Assembly (NCBI GenBank): GCA_030837965.1
Contig: JAUTXP010000043.1
Location: forward strand, 62,001-126,000
Direction of reading: 5' to 3'
Length of the DNA: 64,000 bases
Source: Acidimicrobiaceae bacterium
GTDB taxonomy: Bacteria > Actinomycetota > Acidimicrobiia > Acidimicrobiales > JAUTXP01
Both the position numbers and the translations under genes were made by a program. Below, piece after piece: positions 29,181 to 37,393 of this stretch (position 1 is the first letter of the stretch; every line of letters starts with the position of its first letter). Under the pieces are notes generated by a model. The model was not told where the DNA came from and did not search any database. It saw only the letters and a program-made list of their open reading frames with translations.

Positions 29181-29693
29181 ATGCGGAGAATGTTCTTGGC
29201 CCTAGCGGCCGTGCTCGCCATTGTCGTGGCCACCGCATCGCCTGGCGGCGCCGCCACCGTCGGGGGCGGGGGTGTCCTGGTCGGCGCAGGGACGGTCACC
29301 AGCGGGGCGGGGGGTCTGCCCATCCCGCCGCCGGGCGTGCCCGCCGACGCGACCTTCTCCGGCACGCTGGTGGGGACGGTCGACCTCGCCGTCGGCACGT
29401 TCTCATGCAACCTCAACTTCGTCAATGTGCCGGTTCGGATCGGCGCCATCGTTCTCCAGGAGAGCGTGTCGTTCGGCAGCGGCACCTGGACCGGCGGGTG
29501 CGCCGCGCCGGTGACCGGCTGCACGGGGACCTACGCCCGCGTGGCCTCGGAACTGGTGATGGCGGGCGCATGCACGGTCAACGGGCATTCGGGCACGTGG
29601 ACGGCCGAGTTGTTGTGGGTGCCGACGTCGGTCAACCCGACGACGTCCTTCTCGTTGGCAGGCGCGGTCGCGCTCGTCGTGGCGTCGACCTAG
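29181..29693 (+). CDS. Secreted protein of unknown function
   Basis: 170 residues from ATG 29181, with AGGGAGG upstream. Signal peptide MRRMFLALAAVLAIVVATAS with likely cleavage after GGAA. The mature protein is Gly/Thr/Val-rich and beta-strand-like, with about six Cys (FSCNLNF, GGCAAP, GCTGTY, GACTVNG) that could form disulfides. No anchor. Not recognised. Confidence 0.7.
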   Translation: MRRMFLALAAVLAIVVATASPGGAATVGGGGVLVGAGTVTSGAGGLPIPPPGVPADATFSGTLVGTVDLAVGTFSCNLNFVNVPVRIGAIVLQESVSFGSGTWTGGCAAPVTGCTGTYARVASELVMAGACTVNGHSGTWTAELLWVPTSVNPTTSFSLAGAVALVVAST

Positions 29694-30497: not shown

Positions 30498-31649
30498 ATG
30501 GGAGTTGTGCATGACCCGGTCTGGCCCAGGGACGACCGCGCGGCCCAGGCCGGGCCGCGGCTGACGGGCTCGGTCCAGGCCGACGTGTGCGTGGTCGGGC
30601 TGGGCGGCTCGGGGCTGGCCGCGGTGGACGAGGCGCTGCGCATGGGGCGTTCGGTGGTGGGCATCGATGCCGGGCCCGTGGCCGGTGGGGCCGCGGGACG
30701 CAACGGCGGCTTTCTCCTGGCAGGCACGGCCGACTTCCATCACGACGCGGTGGCCCGCCTTGGTCGGGAGCGGGCTGCGGCCATCTACCGCCTCACCCTG
30801 CGCGAGTTGGACGGGCTCGAACTGGCCCTGCCCGACATCGTGCGCCGAGTGGGCAGCCTCAGGGCGGCCGACTCCGAAGACGAGATGGCCGACTGCGAGC
30901 GCATGCTGGCTGCCCTGCGCGCCGACGGGTTCGACGCCGAGAGCTACGAAGGACCCGAGGGCGTGGGCGTCCTGCTCCCTGCCGACGGCGCCTTCGACCC
31001 CTTGGCCCGCTGCCTACACATGGCCCAAGCGGCCCGCAGCGAAGGGGCCGACCTGTTCGAGCACACGCCTGTGTCGGTGGGCTCGATCGACGTCACGACC
31101 CCCGCCGGCCGCATCGACTGCGACGCCCTGGTCATCGCCGTCGACGGCGGCTTGGAGCGCGTCGTCCCCGACGTGGCATCAAGAGTGCGGACCGCCCGGC
31201 TCCAGATGCTGGCCACCGAGCCGGTGCCGCCTCGCTTCGCCCGACCCGTGTATGCCCGCTGGGGTTACGACTACTGGCAACAGCTCCCGTCGGGCGCGGT
31301 CGCGCTGGGCGGGTGCAGGGACTTGTTTGCAGACGACGAGTGGTCGCTCGACCCCACGCCGACCGAACCAGTACAGCGCGCCCTCGACCGACTGTTGGCC
31401 GAGCGCGTCGGCCTTCCCGAAGCAAGGGTGACCCATCGATGGGCCGGATGTGTCGGCTACACCGACGACCGCATGCCTATCTGCGAACTGGTGCGGCCTG
31501 GCGTGGCCGTGGCGGGCGGTTACTGCGGGACGGGCAACGTGCTCGGCCCGCTGTGCGCCCGGACTGCGCTCCGACTCGCCTTGGGGCTCCCGCTCGACGA
31601 GTTGACGCCGCTGGCCAGCACGGGCGCCAGCGCCAGCGCCGGCCCTTAG
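30498..31649 (+). CDS. FAD-dependent oxidoreductase (DAO/DadA family)
   Basis: 383 residues from ATG 30498. The Rossmann ADP-binding motif DVCVVGLGGSGLAAVDEALR lies near residues 28-47, followed by GGAAGRNGGFLLAGTADF, typical of D-amino-acid oxidase/glycine-oxidase-like enzymes. The C-terminal flavin-binding region is WAGCVGYTDDRMPICE and AGGYCGTGNVLGPLCARTA. The tail is a short Ala/Ser repeat. Its stop overlaps the convergent dxs stop by 4 bp. Substrate unknown. Confidence 0.88.
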   Translation: MGVVHDPVWPRDDRAAQAGPRLTGSVQADVCVVGLGGSGLAAVDEALRMGRSVVGIDAGPVAGGAAGRNGGFLLAGTADFHHDAVARLGRERAAAIYRLTLRELDGLELALPDIVRRVGSLRAADSEDEMADCERMLAALRADGFDAESYEGPEGVGVLLPADGAFDPLARCLHMAQAARSEGADLFEHTPVSVGSIDVTTPAGRIDCDALVIAVDGGLERVVPDVASRVRTARLQMLATEPVPPRFARPVYARWGYDYWQQLPSGAVALGGCRDLFADDEWSLDPTPTEPVQRALDRLLAERVGLPEARVTHRWAGCVGYTDDRMPICELVRPGVAVAGGYCGTGNVLGPLCARTALRLALGLPLDELTPLASTGASASAGP

Positions 31650-33493
31650 ACGGTGGAGTCGGCCCGGGACTGGCGCACCGCGGCCACGATGCCTGCCGCG
31701 TCGAGCCCGAAGCGCGACAGCAGGGCGGACGGCTTGGCCTGGGGGATGAACTCGTCGGGCAGTCCCAACGTCAGCACCTTGGCCGCCGATCCTCGGGACC
31801 GCAGTGCGTCGGCCATGAAGGCGCCGGCCCCGCCCACGCGCACGCCGTCCTCCACGGTGACGACCACGTTGTGGGCCGCGGCGTCGTCCAGCATGGCCGG
31901 GTCCAGGGGCTTGACCACACGCACGTCCCAGATGGTGGCGTCCAACTCGACCGCGGCCTTCTCCGCTTCTTCCACCAGCTTGCCCACGGCCAGCACGCAC
32001 ACGCCGGACTCGCCTCGACGCACTTGTCGAGCGGCCAGACCGGACCCGGTATCGGCCTCGTCCACATGGCGGGCCGCGCCCTTGGGATAGCGGATGGCTG
32101 CGGGCCCGTCGAGCTCGAGCGCGTCGCGAAGCATGACGGCCAGCTCCTGCGCGGACGAAGGAGCGAACACGGTCATGCCCGGGATCTTGAGGCACAACGA
32201 CATGTCGAGCACGCCGTGGTGCGAAGGGCCGTCGTCGCCGGTGATGCCCGCCCGGTCGAGGGCGAAGATGACGGGCAGGCCGTGCAGACCCACGTCGTAC
32301 ACGGCCTGGTCGAAGGCCCGGGTGAAGAAGGTCGAGTAGACGGCGACCACGGGGCGCAGGCCCGCCATGGCCATGCCCGCGGCCGATGTCACCGCGTGCT
32401 GCTCGGCGATGCCCACGTCGTGGAAGCGGTCGGGAAAGCGCTCGGCAAAGGGGATGAGGCCGGTGGGCCCGGGCATGGCCGCGGTGATGGCGTGGACCTG
32501 CGGATGGCGCTCGCCCATGTCCAACATGGCCTCGGCAAAAGCCTCCGTGTAGCCCGCGGGCGCCCACTTGGGCGGACCGGTCACGGGATCGAACTGGGGC
32601 GCGTCGTGCAGGCACTTCTCGTCGTCGTCCTCCGCAGGCGTGTAGCCCCTGCCCTTCTGCGTGAGGACGTGGACGACGATGGGCCCGTCGTAGGCGGCCG
32701 CGTTGCGCAGCGCCACTTCGAGACCGGCGATGTCGTGGCCGTCGATGGGCCCCGTGTAGCGCACCCCGAGCGACTCGAAGAACACGGTGGGCTCGACGAC
32801 CTCGCGCACGGCCGCCTTCAGGCCCTGCAACGACGAGTAGGCCAACTCGCCCACCGCGGGCAGGTCGCGCACCACTTGCTCGAGGCGGTCCCGCCAGTGG
32901 ACGTAGCCGGGATTGAGCCGAAGCCTGCTCACGCTCTCGCCCAGCTTGGAGACGGTGGGGGCGTAGGAGCGGCCGTTGTCGTTGAGGACGATGACGACGC
33001 GCCGACCCGAGTGGCCCAGGTTGTTGAGGCCCTCGAACGCCATGCCGCCGGTCATGGAGCCGTCGCCGATGACGGCCACCACTCTGCGGTCCGCGCCCGA
33101 CTCCTCGACGCCGGTGGCGATGCCGTGGGCGTAGCTCAAGATGGTGGAGGCGTGGGAGTTCTCGACCCAGTCGTGCTCCGACTCGCGCCGCGACGGATAA
33201 CCGGACAAGCCGCCCTCTTGGCGCAAGGTGGCGAAGCGGTCCCGCCTGCCCGTGATCAGCTTGTGGACGTAGGCCTGGTGGCCGGTGTCCCACAGGAGGA
33301 TGTCCCGGGGCGAGTCGAACACCCGGTGCAGGGCCAGGGTCAGTTCGACCGCGCCCAGGTTGGACCCGAGGTGCCCGCCGGTGACGGACACGGCCTGCAC
33401 GACGAACTCGCGGATCTCGGCGGCCAGCGTGGCCAAGTCCTCCGGGCCCAGGGCCCGCAGGTCGGCCGGTCCGTTGATCGTCTCCAGAAGCAT
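31646..33493 (-). CDS. dxs: 1-Deoxy-D-xylulose-5-phosphate synthase
   Basis: 615 residues from ATG 33493. TPP-dependent condensation of pyruvate and glyceraldehyde-3-phosphate, first step of the MEP isoprenoid pathway. Signatures: GGHLGSNLGAVELTLALHRV, LWDTGHQAYVHKLITGR, the TPP motif VVAVIGDGSMTGGMAFEGLN, HVLTQKGRGYTPAE, RFHDVGIAEQHAVTSAAGMA and DDGPSHHG in the transketolase pyrimidine domain. Slightly shorter than the ~630-residue average. A prenyl diphosphate synthase is 2 kb away, consistent with isoprenoid metabolism here. Confidence 0.97.
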   Translation of the reverse strand: MLLETINGPADLRALGPEDLATLAAEIREFVVQAVSVTGGHLGSNLGAVELTLALHRVFDSPRDILLWDTGHQAYVHKLITGRRDRFATLRQEGGLSGYPSRRESEHDWVENSHASTILSYAHGIATGVEESGADRRVVAVIGDGSMTGGMAFEGLNNLGHSGRRVVIVLNDNGRSYAPTVSKLGESVSRLRLNPGYVHWRDRLEQVVRDLPAVGELAYSSLQGLKAAVREVVEPTVFFESLGVRYTGPIDGHDIAGLEVALRNAAAYDGPIVVHVLTQKGRGYTPAEDDDEKCLHDAPQFDPVTGPPKWAPAGYTEAFAEAMLDMGERHPQVHAITAAMPGPTGLIPFAERFPDRFHDVGIAEQHAVTSAAGMAMAGLRPVVAVYSTFFTRAFDQAVYDVGLHGLPVIFALDRAGITGDDGPSHHGVLDMSLCLKIPGMTVFAPSSAQELAVMLRDALELDGPAAIRYPKGAARHVDEADTGSGLAARQVRRGESGVCVLAVGKLVEEAEKAAVELDATIWDVRVVKPLDPAMLDDAAAHNVVVTVEDGVRVGGAGAFMADALRSRGSAAKVLTLGLPDEFIPQAKPSALLSRFGLDAAGIVAAVRQSRADSTV

Positions 33494-33727: not shown

Positions 33728-33865
33728 ATGTCGTTTACCGTGTCACTCGAAGTGCCCGTGCGGCCGCCCTCGCTTCCGCGTACCGGCACCAGCATCGAGC
33801 TCATGATCGCCTTGGCCCTGCTGCTCGTCGTGGCGGGCGCCCTCGTTCTGCGAGTGGCCCGATGA
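33728..33865 (+). CDS. 45-residue LPXTG-type mini-protein
   Basis: ATG at 33728; the stop overlaps the next start (ATGA). A polar N-terminus of ~15 residues is followed by a sortase motif and anchor: SLPRTGTSIELMIALALLLV, then a few hydrophobics and the basic end RVAR. Thus LPRTG, a hydrophobic helix and positive tail are all there, but there is no N-terminal signal peptide and hardly any mature domain. In Firmicute csc clusters a small LPXTG protein accompanies WxL and DUF916 proteins, which is what follows here. No sortase gene is in the window. Confidence 0.65.
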   Translation: MSFTVSLEVPVRPPSLPRTGTSIELMIALALLLVVAGALVLRVAR

Positions 33866-34848
33866 AGGGGCTCCGGCGCTTCGTCGCCCTCGCCGCCGTG
33901 GCCGCGCTGGGCGTGGCCGCAACCGTCCCGGCCTCGGCCGACCAGGTGACGGTCTCCATCACCAATCCCGGCGGGAGCCGCACGCTCTACGTCGAGAACC
34001 TGTTGGGCCAGCCGCTGACCGCGCTGGACTTCGGGACCAGCAGGAGCCAGCCCTTCCGGGTCCGCGTGGTCGACGCCACCATGGACCGCTCGGGCTTTCA
34101 AGTGCTCACGACCATGTCGCACCTCTACAAGGTCTCGGGCCAGTCGTACGACTGGGCCAGCAAGATCGCGTCGTCCGACCTGGCCATCTCCTATCCGCCC
34201 AACCCGTTGAACCTGCTGAACGTGCGGGCCGTGGTGGCGCCCATCTTCGACATGACCGAGACCCTCACCGGCACGCTTTGCACCACGGTGCAGGCCGCGG
34301 GCGGGTCGTGCACGGTGGCCATGTCCGCCATCGACGGGCTGCGTCAGACGGTGGACCTGGTGATCGACCTGGCCGACCTGAACAACCTTCCCCTGATCCC
34401 GCAGATCGGTGAGGTCGGCGACTTCACCTCGCCGGACTTCGCGGGCATCGGCGCCAACGACCCGGCCAAGCCGAACACCTTCACCCCCACCAACCGGCGG
34501 GTCATCTCCGGTGCCGTCTCGACCGCGACGACCACGCTCACCTCGGTGACCAACGCCTTGAAGGCACTCGTCGCCCAGCAGGCCGTGGGCTCGCTGGTCG
34601 ACCCCGACACGCTGAGCGGGGCCGTGCGTGACGCCTTGGGCGGACCGGTGTTCGACGCCCTGCCTGCTTCGAGCGTGCAGACGATCATGGACGGGCTGAC
34701 GGCCACGGTTCGAAACATCGCCTCGGCTGACATCGTCGGGCAGTCGGGCACGTACCTGTCGTATCCCAAGCTCGACGTGACCGTGCCGGACAACACCTCG
34801 CCCGGCAGCTACCAGGGCACGCTGGTGGTCACCGCCGTCCAGCTGTGA
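33862..34848 (+). CDS. Secreted beta-rich surface protein, WxL-cluster-like
   Basis: 328 residues from ATG 33862. Signal peptide MKGLRRFVALAAVAALGVAA, cleavage likely after ASA. The mature protein starts with a beta-rich domain (QVTVSITNPGGSRTLYVENL), has a helical middle (TTLTSVTNALKALVAQQAVG) and ends in a beta-strand tail (VTVPDNTSPGSYQGTLVVTA). That tail resembles the end of WxL-type and related wall-binding domains, although a WxL tripeptide is not seen. Two Cys at CTTVQAAGGSC. Coupled on both sides by overlapping stop/start codons. Presumed surface complex component. Confidence 0.65.
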   Translation: MKGLRRFVALAAVAALGVAATVPASADQVTVSITNPGGSRTLYVENLLGQPLTALDFGTSRSQPFRVRVVDATMDRSGFQVLTTMSHLYKVSGQSYDWASKIASSDLAISYPPNPLNLLNVRAVVAPIFDMTETLTGTLCTTVQAAGGSCTVAMSAIDGLRQTVDLVIDLADLNNLPLIPQIGEVGDFTSPDFAGIGANDPAKPNTFTPTNRRVISGAVSTATTTLTSVTNALKALVAQQAVGSLVDPDTLSGAVRDALGGPVFDALPASSVQTIMDGLTATVRNIASADIVGQSGTYLSYPKLDVTVPDNTSPGSYQGTLVVTAVQL

Positions 34849-35489
34849 GACGGACGATCCTGGCCCTCGGGCTCCTGTTCGCGACTTGGTGGCCGGCGCA
34901 GTCTGCGTCGGCCATCGAGACGTCCTCGTTCGGCCTCGGGCCGGCGGGGCCCTCGAGCCGGACCGCGCTGCACGAAGACGTTCGCCCGGGCCACCACACC
35001 GATGACGCCGTGCGGGTCTGGAACAAGACCGACAAGCCCGTGGTCGTGAACCTGGCCGTGCAAGGCGCCACCATCGACAAGGCCGGTCAGGTGAGCCTGG
35101 GCGGCAACGCCGGGGCAGCCCGCTGGGTGCGCCTCTCGTCGGCCAAGGTCACCCTCGCCCCTCATGCCTCGGTCGAGGTCCCGGTCGCGTTCGAAGGGCC
35201 GCGCACGATGCCCTCAGGGACGTCGACGGCGGCCATCGTGGCCGAGGCCGAGAGCGGGCCGGGCGGCTCGTCCAGCGTCGCCGTGCTCCAACGGGTCGCG
35301 CTGATGGTCTACGCCAAGGCGCCGACGGGTTCGCCGCTGCGGGCCGCGTTGGGCTGGGCCGCATGGGTTGCTGTCGCCTTGTTGGTCGGGGTGGTGGGCT
35401 ACGTGGCGTTCATGCGCAGGCCGCGTCGACAGGCCGTGCAGAGCCTGCGGCATGTGGGCGCGCTGGCACGCGTCCCGCACCCTTCCTAA
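34845..35489 (+). CDS. Membrane-anchored DUF916/WxLIP-like protein
   Basis: 214 residues, GTG at 34845 overlapping the upstream TGA. Signal peptide MRRTILALGLLFATWWPAQS. The exterior domain has the DUF916 (WxL-interacting protein) pattern: DVRPGHHTDDAVRVWNKTDK, then VVVNLAVQGATIDKAGQVSL, and VTLAPHASVEVPVAFEGPRT followed by PSGTSTAAIVA. One C-terminal membrane helix (GWAAWVAVALLVGVVGYVAF) and a basic cytoplasmic tail. In WxL clusters such proteins hold the secreted WxL partner at the envelope; here the likely partner is the preceding gene. Confidence 0.68.
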   Translation: MRRTILALGLLFATWWPAQSASAIETSSFGLGPAGPSSRTALHEDVRPGHHTDDAVRVWNKTDKPVVVNLAVQGATIDKAGQVSLGGNAGAARWVRLSSAKVTLAPHASVEVPVAFEGPRTMPSGTSTAAIVAEAESGPGGSSSVAVLQRVALMVYAKAPTGSPLRAALGWAAWVAVALLVGVVGYVAFMRRPRRQAVQSLRHVGALARVPHPS

Positions 35490-35520: not shown

Positions 35521-36576
35521 TCAGTGGTCGCGGCCGGCCACGTAGACGGCCAATGCCTCCAACTCCGTACGGGCCTCGTCGGTGATCGGCGTGCGGGCCA
35601 AGGCGAGCAGCGACTGGTCGAGCAGTTCGCCGATGCGGGCCTCCACCTTGTCCTTGGCGCCGGTGGCCACGAGCACCTCTTGCAGTTGCGTGATCTCGTC
35701 CTCGGCCAGATCGGGCGAGCCGAAGCGGCGGGCCAGCAGTTCGGCCGCAGCGCCGTCGGCCTCGGCCGCGGCCAGCGCGTACAGCGCGGTGGGCTTGCCC
35801 TCCCGCAGGTCCTCGCCCACCGGCTTGCCGGTCACGGCCGTGTCCCCGAAGACGCCGAGGAGGTCGTCGCGCAGTTGGAAGGCCTCGCCCAACGGCGCGC
35901 CGAACGCGGTCAGCGGGTCCTGCAATTCGTTCAGTCTTCCGGCCAACGCGGCACCCAGGTGCAGAGGCCGTTCGGTCGTGTAGCGACCGGACTTGTAGAT
36001 GCAGATGCGCCGGGCCGCGTCCACTGACGCGTCGCGCCGGACCGTGCCCAACAGGTCGAGGTATTGGCCGATGTTGACCTCGAGCCGAAGCTCGGTGAAC
36101 ACGTCCAGCGCGTCACCAGGCGCGTCCCGCAGGAACAGGTCGGCGTAGACGAAGGCCAGGTCGCCGACGAGGATCCCGACCCCTTCGCCAAAGCGCCTTG
36201 CCTCGCCGTGCCACTGGCCCGCAGCGTGCAGGTCTTGGAACAGCACATGGGTTGCGTCCAGGCCTCGGCGGGTGATGGAGCCGTCCATGATGTCGTCGTG
36301 GATGAGGGCGAAGGTGTGGAGCAGTTCGAGGGCCGCGCCCGCGTCGACCACCCTTGCCGCGTCGGGGTCGCCGCCCGCGCCCACGAAGGCCCAGTGGCAG
36401 AAGGCGGGCCGCAGCCGCTTGCCGCCTGCGAGGACAAGGCGCCGCAGCGCATCGAGGGGGGCGGCCAGGTCCGGGTCGACGGTGCGCCAACGCCCCAACT
36501 CGGCGACCAGCACCTCGTCGATGCGCTGTTGCACCCGGCTCGCGATCAGGGTGAGTCGGGCGGGCGCCTCGGTCAT
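35521..36576 (-). CDS. Polyprenyl (geranylgeranyl-type) diphosphate synthase
   Basis: 351 residues from ATG 36576; a second ATG 16 codons upstream is possible. A trans-isoprenyl diphosphate synthase that condenses IPP with an allylic diphosphate. First Asp-rich motif in HTFALIHDDIMDGSITRRG, second in FQLRDDLLGVFGD, plus the upstream GGKRLRPAFC and KSGRYTTERPL segments. Short chain-length residues before the first motif (LELLHTF) fit C15-C20 products, but this cannot be fixed by eye. dxs nearby supplies IPP precursor. Confidence 0.92.
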   Translation of the reverse strand: MTEAPARLTLIASRVQQRIDEVLVAELGRWRTVDPDLAAPLDALRRLVLAGGKRLRPAFCHWAFVGAGGDPDAARVVDAGAALELLHTFALIHDDIMDGSITRRGLDATHVLFQDLHAAGQWHGEARRFGEGVGILVGDLAFVYADLFLRDAPGDALDVFTELRLEVNIGQYLDLLGTVRRDASVDAARRICIYKSGRYTTERPLHLGAALAGRLNELQDPLTAFGAPLGEAFQLRDDLLGVFGDTAVTGKPVGEDLREGKPTALYALAAAEADGAAAELLARRFGSPDLAEDEITQLQEVLVATGAKDKVEARIGELLDQSLLALARTPITDEARTELEALAVYVAGRDH

Positions 36577-36622
36577 CGCCACGCGGTCGAGCCTAGGGGC
36601 CGCGCCGGTAGGGTGCCCGGCC

Positions 36623-37393
36623 ATGGCCTACACACCTTTCGACCTGACCGGGCGGGTGGCCTTGGTGACGGGCGGCAACGGCGGCATCGGGCTGGGCATG
36701 GCGTCGGCGTTGGCCGCGGCGGGCGCCGACGTGGCCGTGTGGGGCACCAATGAAGACAAGAACGATGCCGCTGTCGCCGCGCTGGCGGAGCACGGCACGC
36801 GGGTCGCCGCTTTCGTCTGCGATGTGGGTGACGAGGCCGCCGTCGAGTCCGCCTTCGCGGCGACGGTCGAGGCCTTCGGCCGGGTCGACACGTGCGTGGC
36901 CAACGCGGGCGTGGGCGGCGGCGGCGCGTCGTTCGTGGACCTGTCGATGGACGAGTGGCGCCGGGTCATGCGGGTCAACATGGAGGGCGCGTTCCTCACC
37001 CTTCGGGCCGCGGCCAGGCACATGGTGGAGCGGGGCCAAGGCGGGTCGCTGATCGGCGTGGCCAGCCTGGCCGCCATCGAGGGGGCGGCCCGCAACGAGC
37101 ACTACGCGGCGACCAAGGGCGGCCTGACGTCGATGATGCGGGGGTTGGCGGTGGAGTTGGCCCGGCACCGCATCAGGGCCAACTCGGTGCTGCCGGGCTG
37201 GATCGAGACGGCCATGACCGAGGGCGCGTTCGGCAACGAGCGCTTCACCGAGAAGGTGCTGCCGCGCGTGCCGCTGCGGCGGTGGGGGACGCCCGCCGAC
37301 TTCGGCGGCGTGGCCGTGTACCTGGCCAGCGATGCGTCCGGCTATCACACGGGCGACAGCTTCGTCATCGACGGCGGCTACGCCGTCTTCTAA
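36623..37393 (+). CDS. Short-chain dehydrogenase/reductase (SDR)
   Basis: 256 residues from ATG 36623, divergent from the prenyl synthase. Classical SDR: TGxxxGIG cofactor motif in VTGGNGGIGLGMASALAAAG, CDVGD, NAG in CVANAGVGGGG, the active-site YAATK in ARNEHYAATKGGLTSMMRG, and the NSVLPGWIETAMT region. C-terminal DSFVIDGGYAVF. NAD(P)H-dependent; substrate unknown. Confidence 0.93.
   Translation: MAYTPFDLTGRVALVTGGNGGIGLGMASALAAAGADVAVWGTNEDKNDAAVAALAEHGTRVAAFVCDVGDEAAVESAFAATVEAFGRVDTCVANAGVGGGGASFVDLSMDEWRRVMRVNMEGAFLTLRAAARHMVERGQGGSLIGVASLAAIEGAARNEHYAATKGGLTSMMRGLAVELARHRIRANSVLPGWIETAMTEGAFGNERFTEKVLPRVPLRRWGTPADFGGVAVYLASDASGYHTGDSFVIDGGYAVF

Follow-up and report, generated by a model that had tools for sequence, protein, structure and literature searches.

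Lactobacilli, listeriae and enterococci commonly carry clusters of the csc (WxL) type. In the clusters of Firmicutes, CscA is a WxLIP protein with DUF916 and DUF3324 domains, CscB and CscC are WxL proteins, and CscD is a small LPXTG protein. Siezen (2006) described the CscD members as LPXTG proteins of 90–140 residues with a signal peptide, and these short peptides gave no informative alignment (PMC1534035); what this tiny protein does has been a standing question ever since. In the AlphaFold predictions of Hassan and colleagues, a strand of the WxLIP is placed in a gap of the WxL protein and completes its sandwich (PMC10599100), and the N-terminal strand of WxL was noted as possibly rearranging (PMC9772566). 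In B. subtilis, the N-terminus of TapA resembles the donor strand of TasA, and TapA was proposed as the supplier of the first strand (PMC9674648; PMC10151520). A text search of an open-access library found no paper that proposes a donor strand for WxL.

Here we analysed a window of 64,000 nucleotides from an Acidimicrobiaceae bacterium, which carries a three-gene cassette with a very small LPXTG protein (hereafter the mini). The cassette belongs to the csc/WxL type, in a reduced form. The main new finding, common to Firmicutes and Actinobacteria and unforeseen in an earlier sequence-only reading of the window, is the apparent copying of the mature N-terminal strand of the WxL protein by its small LPXTG partner.

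Gene layout

The three overlapping open reading frames were verified, and both overlaps on which the earlier reading had linked them are real: ATGA between the mini gene and the WxL-like gene, and GTGA between the WxL-like and WxLIP-like genes (Table 1). Two minus-strand genes flank the cassette; we take them to be dxs-like (31646–33493) and polyprenyl-synthetase-like (35521–36624). A palindrome, CTTTTCCACAGCACCTGCTGCTGTGGAAAAG (31 nt, one or two variable central bases), has six copies in the window (10234, 19738, 33556, 37989, 46017 and 46943) and 151 in the whole genome (3.55 Mb), with no copy in a reversed control. The mini gene and the dxs-like gene are separated by one of these copies, and the palindrome is a candidate REP-like element or protein-binding site. 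Positions 29181–29693 of the window encode a secreted 170-aa protein with no Pfam match and unrelated genes on either side.

Table 1. Features of the cassette, in window coordinates.
Feature	Position	Strand	Basis
Mini LPXTG gene, CscD-like, 45 aa, no signal peptide	33728..33865	+	ORF; PF00746; TIGR01167; kept in 12 loci
Strand-like N-terminal segment SFTVSLEVPV of mini, resembling the partner's mature N-terminal strand	33731..33760	+	Score 18 vs ≤16 elsewhere
LPRTG sortase motif	33773..33787	+	Sequence; LxxTG invariant in alignment A4 and in L069, L070, L072, L073
Mini membrane helix, residues 23–41, then RVAR	33794..33850	+	Hydropathy 2.81
Secreted WxL-like beta-sandwich protein, 328 aa	33862..34848	+	ORF; AlphaFold model of L052 homologue, core blocks pLDDT up to 95
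Putative signal peptide of WxL-like protein, about residues 1–26	33862..33939	+	AxA at residues 24–26
QVTVSIT, N-terminal strand of the mature WxL-like protein (proposed as donor-type)	33943..33963	+	Alignment A2; L052 equivalent EVVVAV undocked in AlphaFold model
C-terminal motif QSGTYLSYPKLDVTVPDNTSPGSYQGTLVVT, WxL-like without W	34741..34833	+	hhalign to actinobacterial WxL-like proteins, 31 columns
Short WxLIP/DUF916-like membrane protein, 214 aa	34845..35489	+	PF06030 E=5.7e-4; hhalign 97.5% to two-domain WxLIPs; Foldseek to solved WxLIP
Region matching WxLIP peptidoglycan-binding domain, residues 46–131	34980..35237	+	PF06030 profile match
C-terminal membrane helix of WxLIP-like protein, residues 171–190	35355..35414	+	Helix in AlphaFold model

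Distribution and conservation

The WxLIP-like protein was searched against 99 related genomes, 397 genomes of the order, 396 of the phylum and the GTDB contig set and, for each of two distant matches, against about 200 genomes in its neighbourhood. Eleven further actinobacterial cassettes were found, giving 12 loci in total: L014 (=L055, Centralia_MAG_137), L016, L058, L052 (=L057, YU_71_112), L053 and L056 (Frankiaceae MAGs), L054 (Frankiales MAG), L069, L073, L070 and L072. Within the order, 5 of 397 genomes carry the cassette, which makes it rare, and it also occurs outside that order. All 12 loci hold a small LxxTG gene, so the mini gene and the cassette around it are conserved, as the sequence-only reading had required. 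The gene order is mini–WxL–WxLIP in most loci and WxL–WxLIP–mini in L016 and L058. Two close pairs of minis show purifying selection, with dN/dS of 0.28 (L053/L056) and 0.22 (L069/L073). The switch in gene order, the invariant LxxTG and the purifying selection make a chance origin of the mini gene untenable. In L052 the mini reads in frame into the WxL-like gene, and one base change restores the usual ATGA overlap; this fusion is possibly a one-base assembly error and was not relied on as proof of linkage.

Two other arrangements were seen in these genomes. SipW-like signal-peptidase-like genes lie by small secreted, partly TasA-like genes at L014:5980-6717 (by the cassette) and L015:6892-7512 (near a WxLIP gene). 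Separate two-gene sets of a WxL-like gene and a two-domain WxLIP gene occur at G000:C68 (L020, L024), L017, L021, L022 and L053:3604-5399; some have GW at the first motif, and no LPXTG partner was recognised in them.

The WxLIP-like protein and the sortases

The third protein has a GTG start, a signal peptide, a C-terminal helix and a basic tail, the layout of a DUF916 protein. Its assignment comes from profile and fold. Against PF06030 (WxLIP_PGBD), a search proposed with the sequence-only reading, it gave an E value of 5.7e-4 with a score of 20.4 bits, below the cut-off of 27.3. The short WxLIPs aligned with the two-domain actinobacterial WxLIPs (hhalign 97.5%, E=7e-12). For the window protein, AlphaFold gave a model with a mean pLDDT of 78.9, which Foldseek matched to the solved Enterococcus WxLIP, alone and WxL-bound (9i1y, 9i25), with E about 6e-7. 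This fold likeness, whose absence would have spoken against the earlier reading, bears out a DUF916/WxLIP-like protein. The same Foldseek list held the chaperones CsuC, CfaA, PapD and Caf1M (E about 2e-6 to 3e-5), together with CEP192 and HYDIN, unrelated proteins with a PapD-like fold. Many proteins other than chaperones have this PapD-like fold. The second WxLIP domain (DUF3324/HBD) is missing, as the 214-aa protein stops after one sandwich and the helix.

A sortase had also been expected, and the genome has three. The class E one (G000:C25) scored above its cut-off, and a second was best matched by class E; none of them adjoins the cassette in the window. Eight further cassette genomes were tested, and each has at least two sortases.

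The WxL-like protein

The middle protein has a signal peptide and showed no significant family in the Pfam and NCBIfam searches. A PF13731 search had been suggested for it. The window protein gave no match to this profile, and among eight family members only L053 matched it, below threshold, over the first motif (E=0.0036, 17.8 bits against a cut-off of 25). The two Trp-x-Leu motifs are absent from the window protein. In alignment A2, conserved GFxV and GTLVVT occupy the expected W sites and no Trp is conserved. The tie to WxL proteins is weak, formed by the C-terminal motif (hhalign, 31 columns) and the sub-threshold first motif of L053; hhalign of alignment A2 against a single WxL-like protein gave no match. 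The description of a secreted, beta-rich protein stands, its WxL-type ending is weakly supported by the 31-column match, and PF13731 and the Trp motifs do not support it. Membership in PF13731 fails formally; the protein may still work in a WxL-like way. The cassette holds one WxL-like gene only, in place of a small and a large one.

The fused L052 chain was modelled by AlphaFold from a 12-sequence alignment. Residues 1–94 had pLDDT below 50, and the sandwich core blocks had 88–95. In this single-chain model (mean pLDDT 59.5), the strand of the mini was unplaced, as was EVVVAV (86–91), the N-terminal strand of the WxL part, and neither was docked in the core. Sequence searches found no small WxL domain and no small LPXTG protein among solved structures, and a search of a viral fold library returned noise only.

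Direct PF13731 and PF06030 searches yield little, so the cassette was assigned by its profiles, by fold and by the context of its genes. Of the csc-like set that had been proposed, the DUF916 relative and the small LPXTG protein held up, as did the presence of sortases, and the WxL protein did not by PF13731 or Trp motifs. The suggestion of a distinct cell-surface system gives way to a reduced variant of the csc/WxL kind.

The mini and its topology

The mini, MSFTVSLEVPVRPPSLPRTGTSIELMIALALLLVVAGALVLRVAR, opens with MSFTVSLEVPVRPPSLPRTG. It passed Pfam Gram_pos_anchor (PF00746) with 20.1 bits against a cut-off of 20, and it was above the cut-off of NCBIfam LPXTG_anchor TIGR01167. As had been read earlier, it is LPRTG plus a membrane anchor and little else. 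Each of the 12 minis starts with a strand-like segment, followed by LxxTG, a single membrane helix and a basic tail, and with sortases in the genome the window mini has the features of a sortase substrate. It is a small LPXTG protein inside the cluster, like CscD; at 45 aa without a signal peptide it falls outside the 90–140 residues with signal peptide of CscD, into which its relatives L070 (110 aa) and L072 (102 aa) fall.

Ten of the 12 minis have no hydrophobic N-terminus (best 11-residue hydropathy 0.4–1.4). In L070 and L072 (2.7 and 3.1, respectively) a signal peptide is clear and ends just ahead of the strand. For the window mini, no in-frame upstream extension was hydrophobic enough for a signal peptide, and hydropathy and extensions together confirm the earlier claim that it lacks one. 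Upstream in-frame extensions left the status of all ten unchanged, and four of the ten reach an in-frame stop within 12 codons. The signal-less minis pair with one-domain WxLIPs (about 190–225 aa, n=10) and the signal-bearing minis with two-domain WxLIPs (n=2).

After the signal peptide, the chain opens with the strand, QPLPVIVEV in L070 and QNAQTVDVFVTV in L072, with the cores LPVIVEV and VDVFVTV, respectively. In the signal-less minis the counterpart strand (GSVPVIVEV, QTVPVTVTV) is the extreme N-terminus. Because the signal peptides of L070 and L072 precede the equivalent strand, the N-terminus of the signal-less minis should also face outward, and their single helix would act as a reverse signal-anchor with the N-terminus outside. 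The higher helix hydropathy of the signal-less minis (1.9–2.9 versus 1.7 in the signal-bearing ones) and their basic tails fit this orientation. The mini might also be a small membrane peptide, a regulator or assembly factor, maybe facing inward, in which LPRTG is incidental. The missing signal peptide, the weak Pfam score (20.1 bits) and the very short chain agree with such a peptide, but LxxTG is invariant in 12 of 12 loci, and the basic tail, the sortases and the signal-bearing relatives make it very improbable.

Strand mimicry between the LPXTG and WxL proteins

Each small LPXTG protein was compared, by its mature N-terminus, with the N-terminus of its partner WxL protein and with every other 22-residue window. 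The Firmicutes clusters were taken from plasmids and found with a self-written, consensus-like DUF916 peptide guided by the motif of PMC10599100. With cleavage sites set by eye and a biased strand composition, 10 of the 13 Firmicutes pairs topped every other window (scores of 25–42 against at most 20), and three pairs did not match. In E. innesii, YDSNGVTSFFG of the LPXTG protein stands against YTSNGAITFEA, YTSNGAVDFIP and YNSNGQITFEP of the WxL proteins; in E. mundtii, VETEGTIGFTG stands against VTTNGNIEFTP. The same LPXTG N-termini scored 12–24 against the WxLIP N-termini, with no comparable match. Two small LPXTG genes on Enterococcus plasmids (L077:3141-3526 and L093:4586-4938) are each split into two annotated genes, and frameshifts are possible there.

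In the window, SFTVSLEV and QVTVSIT outscored all other 22-residue windows. Six of the 12 actinobacterial pairs were at or under 0.05, the related loci among them not being independent; in the remaining half, the likeness was indistinguishable from background. Strands of alternating V, T and S readily resemble one another. Two earlier tests were weaker. One, with 10-mers and shuffles, was only suggestive, placing 7 of 12 top matches at the N-terminus against 2.6 expected (rank-sum p=0.34); in the other, some WxL proteins lost the strand because their signal peptides were cut automatically. The window-versus-window test replaced both. A MAFFT alignment of the minis with whole WxL proteins put the strands on the WxL N-termini and misplaced the rest, and it was not used for folding.

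Judged from these sequence comparisons, the copying of the WxL strand appears plain in Firmicutes and moderate in Actinobacteria. The putative donor strand resembles the subunit's own N-terminal strand, strongly in the former and moderately in the latter. The likeness could instead reflect a shared origin of secreted N-termini in an ordinary csc complex, where the LPXTG tether binds the WxLIP or another surface component in some other way. Siezen (2006) suggested anchoring via unknown interactions (PMC1534035), and half of the pairs from Actinobacteria show weak mimicry. However, the match is specific to the position of the WxL N-terminus in 10 of 13 Firmicutes pairs and absent against WxLIP N-termini, and the N-terminal strand is unplaced in the core of the model. 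We regard an ordinary complex as unlikely, although it deserves serious weight.

Proposed mechanism

The mimicry, the unplaced strands of the L052 model and the WxLIP/WxL and TapA/TasA precedents led us to propose, tentatively and at a little under an even chance, that the small LPXTG protein may be a wall-linked donor strand that anchors the WxL subunit within a reduced WxL/csc surface complex. The WxL-like protein would be an Ig-like beta-sandwich with its mature N-terminal strand outside its own compact core. The short WxLIP in the membrane may hold this subunit in the manner of a PapD-like chaperone. The mini would insert with its N-terminus out and without a signal peptide, and a sortase would cut LPRT|G and join the 19-residue peptide MSFTVSLEVPVRPPSLPRT to the wall. 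The mini strand could then fill the groove of the accepting protein, otherwise taken by the WxL-like N-terminal strand. In this way a WxL subunit would be fixed covalently to the wall, either singly or as the base on which a short chain of subunits stands.

A donor-strand-exchange fibre goes further: WxL subunits would polymerise, each handing its N-terminal strand to the next, with WxLIP acting as the chaperone in the membrane and the LPXTG protein forming the base in the wall. Such a fibre would be the Gram-positive equivalent of chaperone-usher pili. Small WxL proteins of Firmicutes have the architecture of strand, Pro linker and domain, and WxLIP resembles pilus chaperones. CfaB pilins were the best PDB matches of the L052 WxL-like model, but non-significantly (E=0.07 or worse), and the long linker is missing from the actinobacterial WxL-like proteins (alignment A2). 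A long fibre is less likely because overexpression of the E. faecalis elr operon gave no appendages visible by electron microscopy (PMC4522977), and we consider the fibre improbable. ElrA is detectable only in the presence of other elr genes (PMC4522977), as expected for a subunit that needs completion.

Extended to all WxL/csc clusters of Firmicutes and Actinobacteria, the wall-linked donor strand would make them sortase-anchored donor-strand systems, with WxLIP as chaperone, WxL proteins as free-strand subunits and the LPXTG protein as a wall-linked strand copy, whose wall-linked part in the reduced actinobacterial form would be a 19-residue peptide, exported with no signal peptide. We hold this generalisation to be possible and somewhat less than probable. 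The strand copy offers a concrete and cheaply testable mechanism for the tiny csc LPXTG protein. If it is true, a bare strand with a sorting signal and no signal peptide would suffice to fasten a protein at the cell surface to the wall, and the actinobacterial cassette would be the minimal version.

Comparison with known systems

The predicted fold of the window WxLIP-like protein matches the E. faecium WxLIP (PDB 9i1y, 9i25) over 152 columns; however, identity is 15–16% and the window protein is reduced to one domain and a helix. With chaperone-usher pili, the cassette shares a WxLIP-like model that resembles PapD-like chaperones and the logic of a sandwich subunit with an N-terminal strand; unlike them, it has no usher, belongs to a Gram-positive organism and has a membrane-bound chaperone-like protein. 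The cassette resembles the TasA/TapA/SipW system of B. subtilis in that a small partner has an N-terminus similar to the donor strand of the main beta-sandwich subunit (PMC9674648, PMC10151520). TapA, however, is a folded protein that is not known to have a sortase motif, no sequence relation is shown and TasA/TapA/SipW has no WxLIP. The cassette shares with the Firmicutes csc clusters the three kinds of gene and their adjacency. In both, only a short peptide precedes the motif in the small LPXTG protein, the WxLIP has a C-terminal membrane helix, and the LPXTG N-terminus resembles that of WxL. In contrast to the Firmicutes clusters, 10 of the 12 actinobacterial minis have no signal peptide, the short WxLIP has no DUF3324, and the WxL-like protein has no Trp motifs and is not accompanied by a separate large WxL protein.
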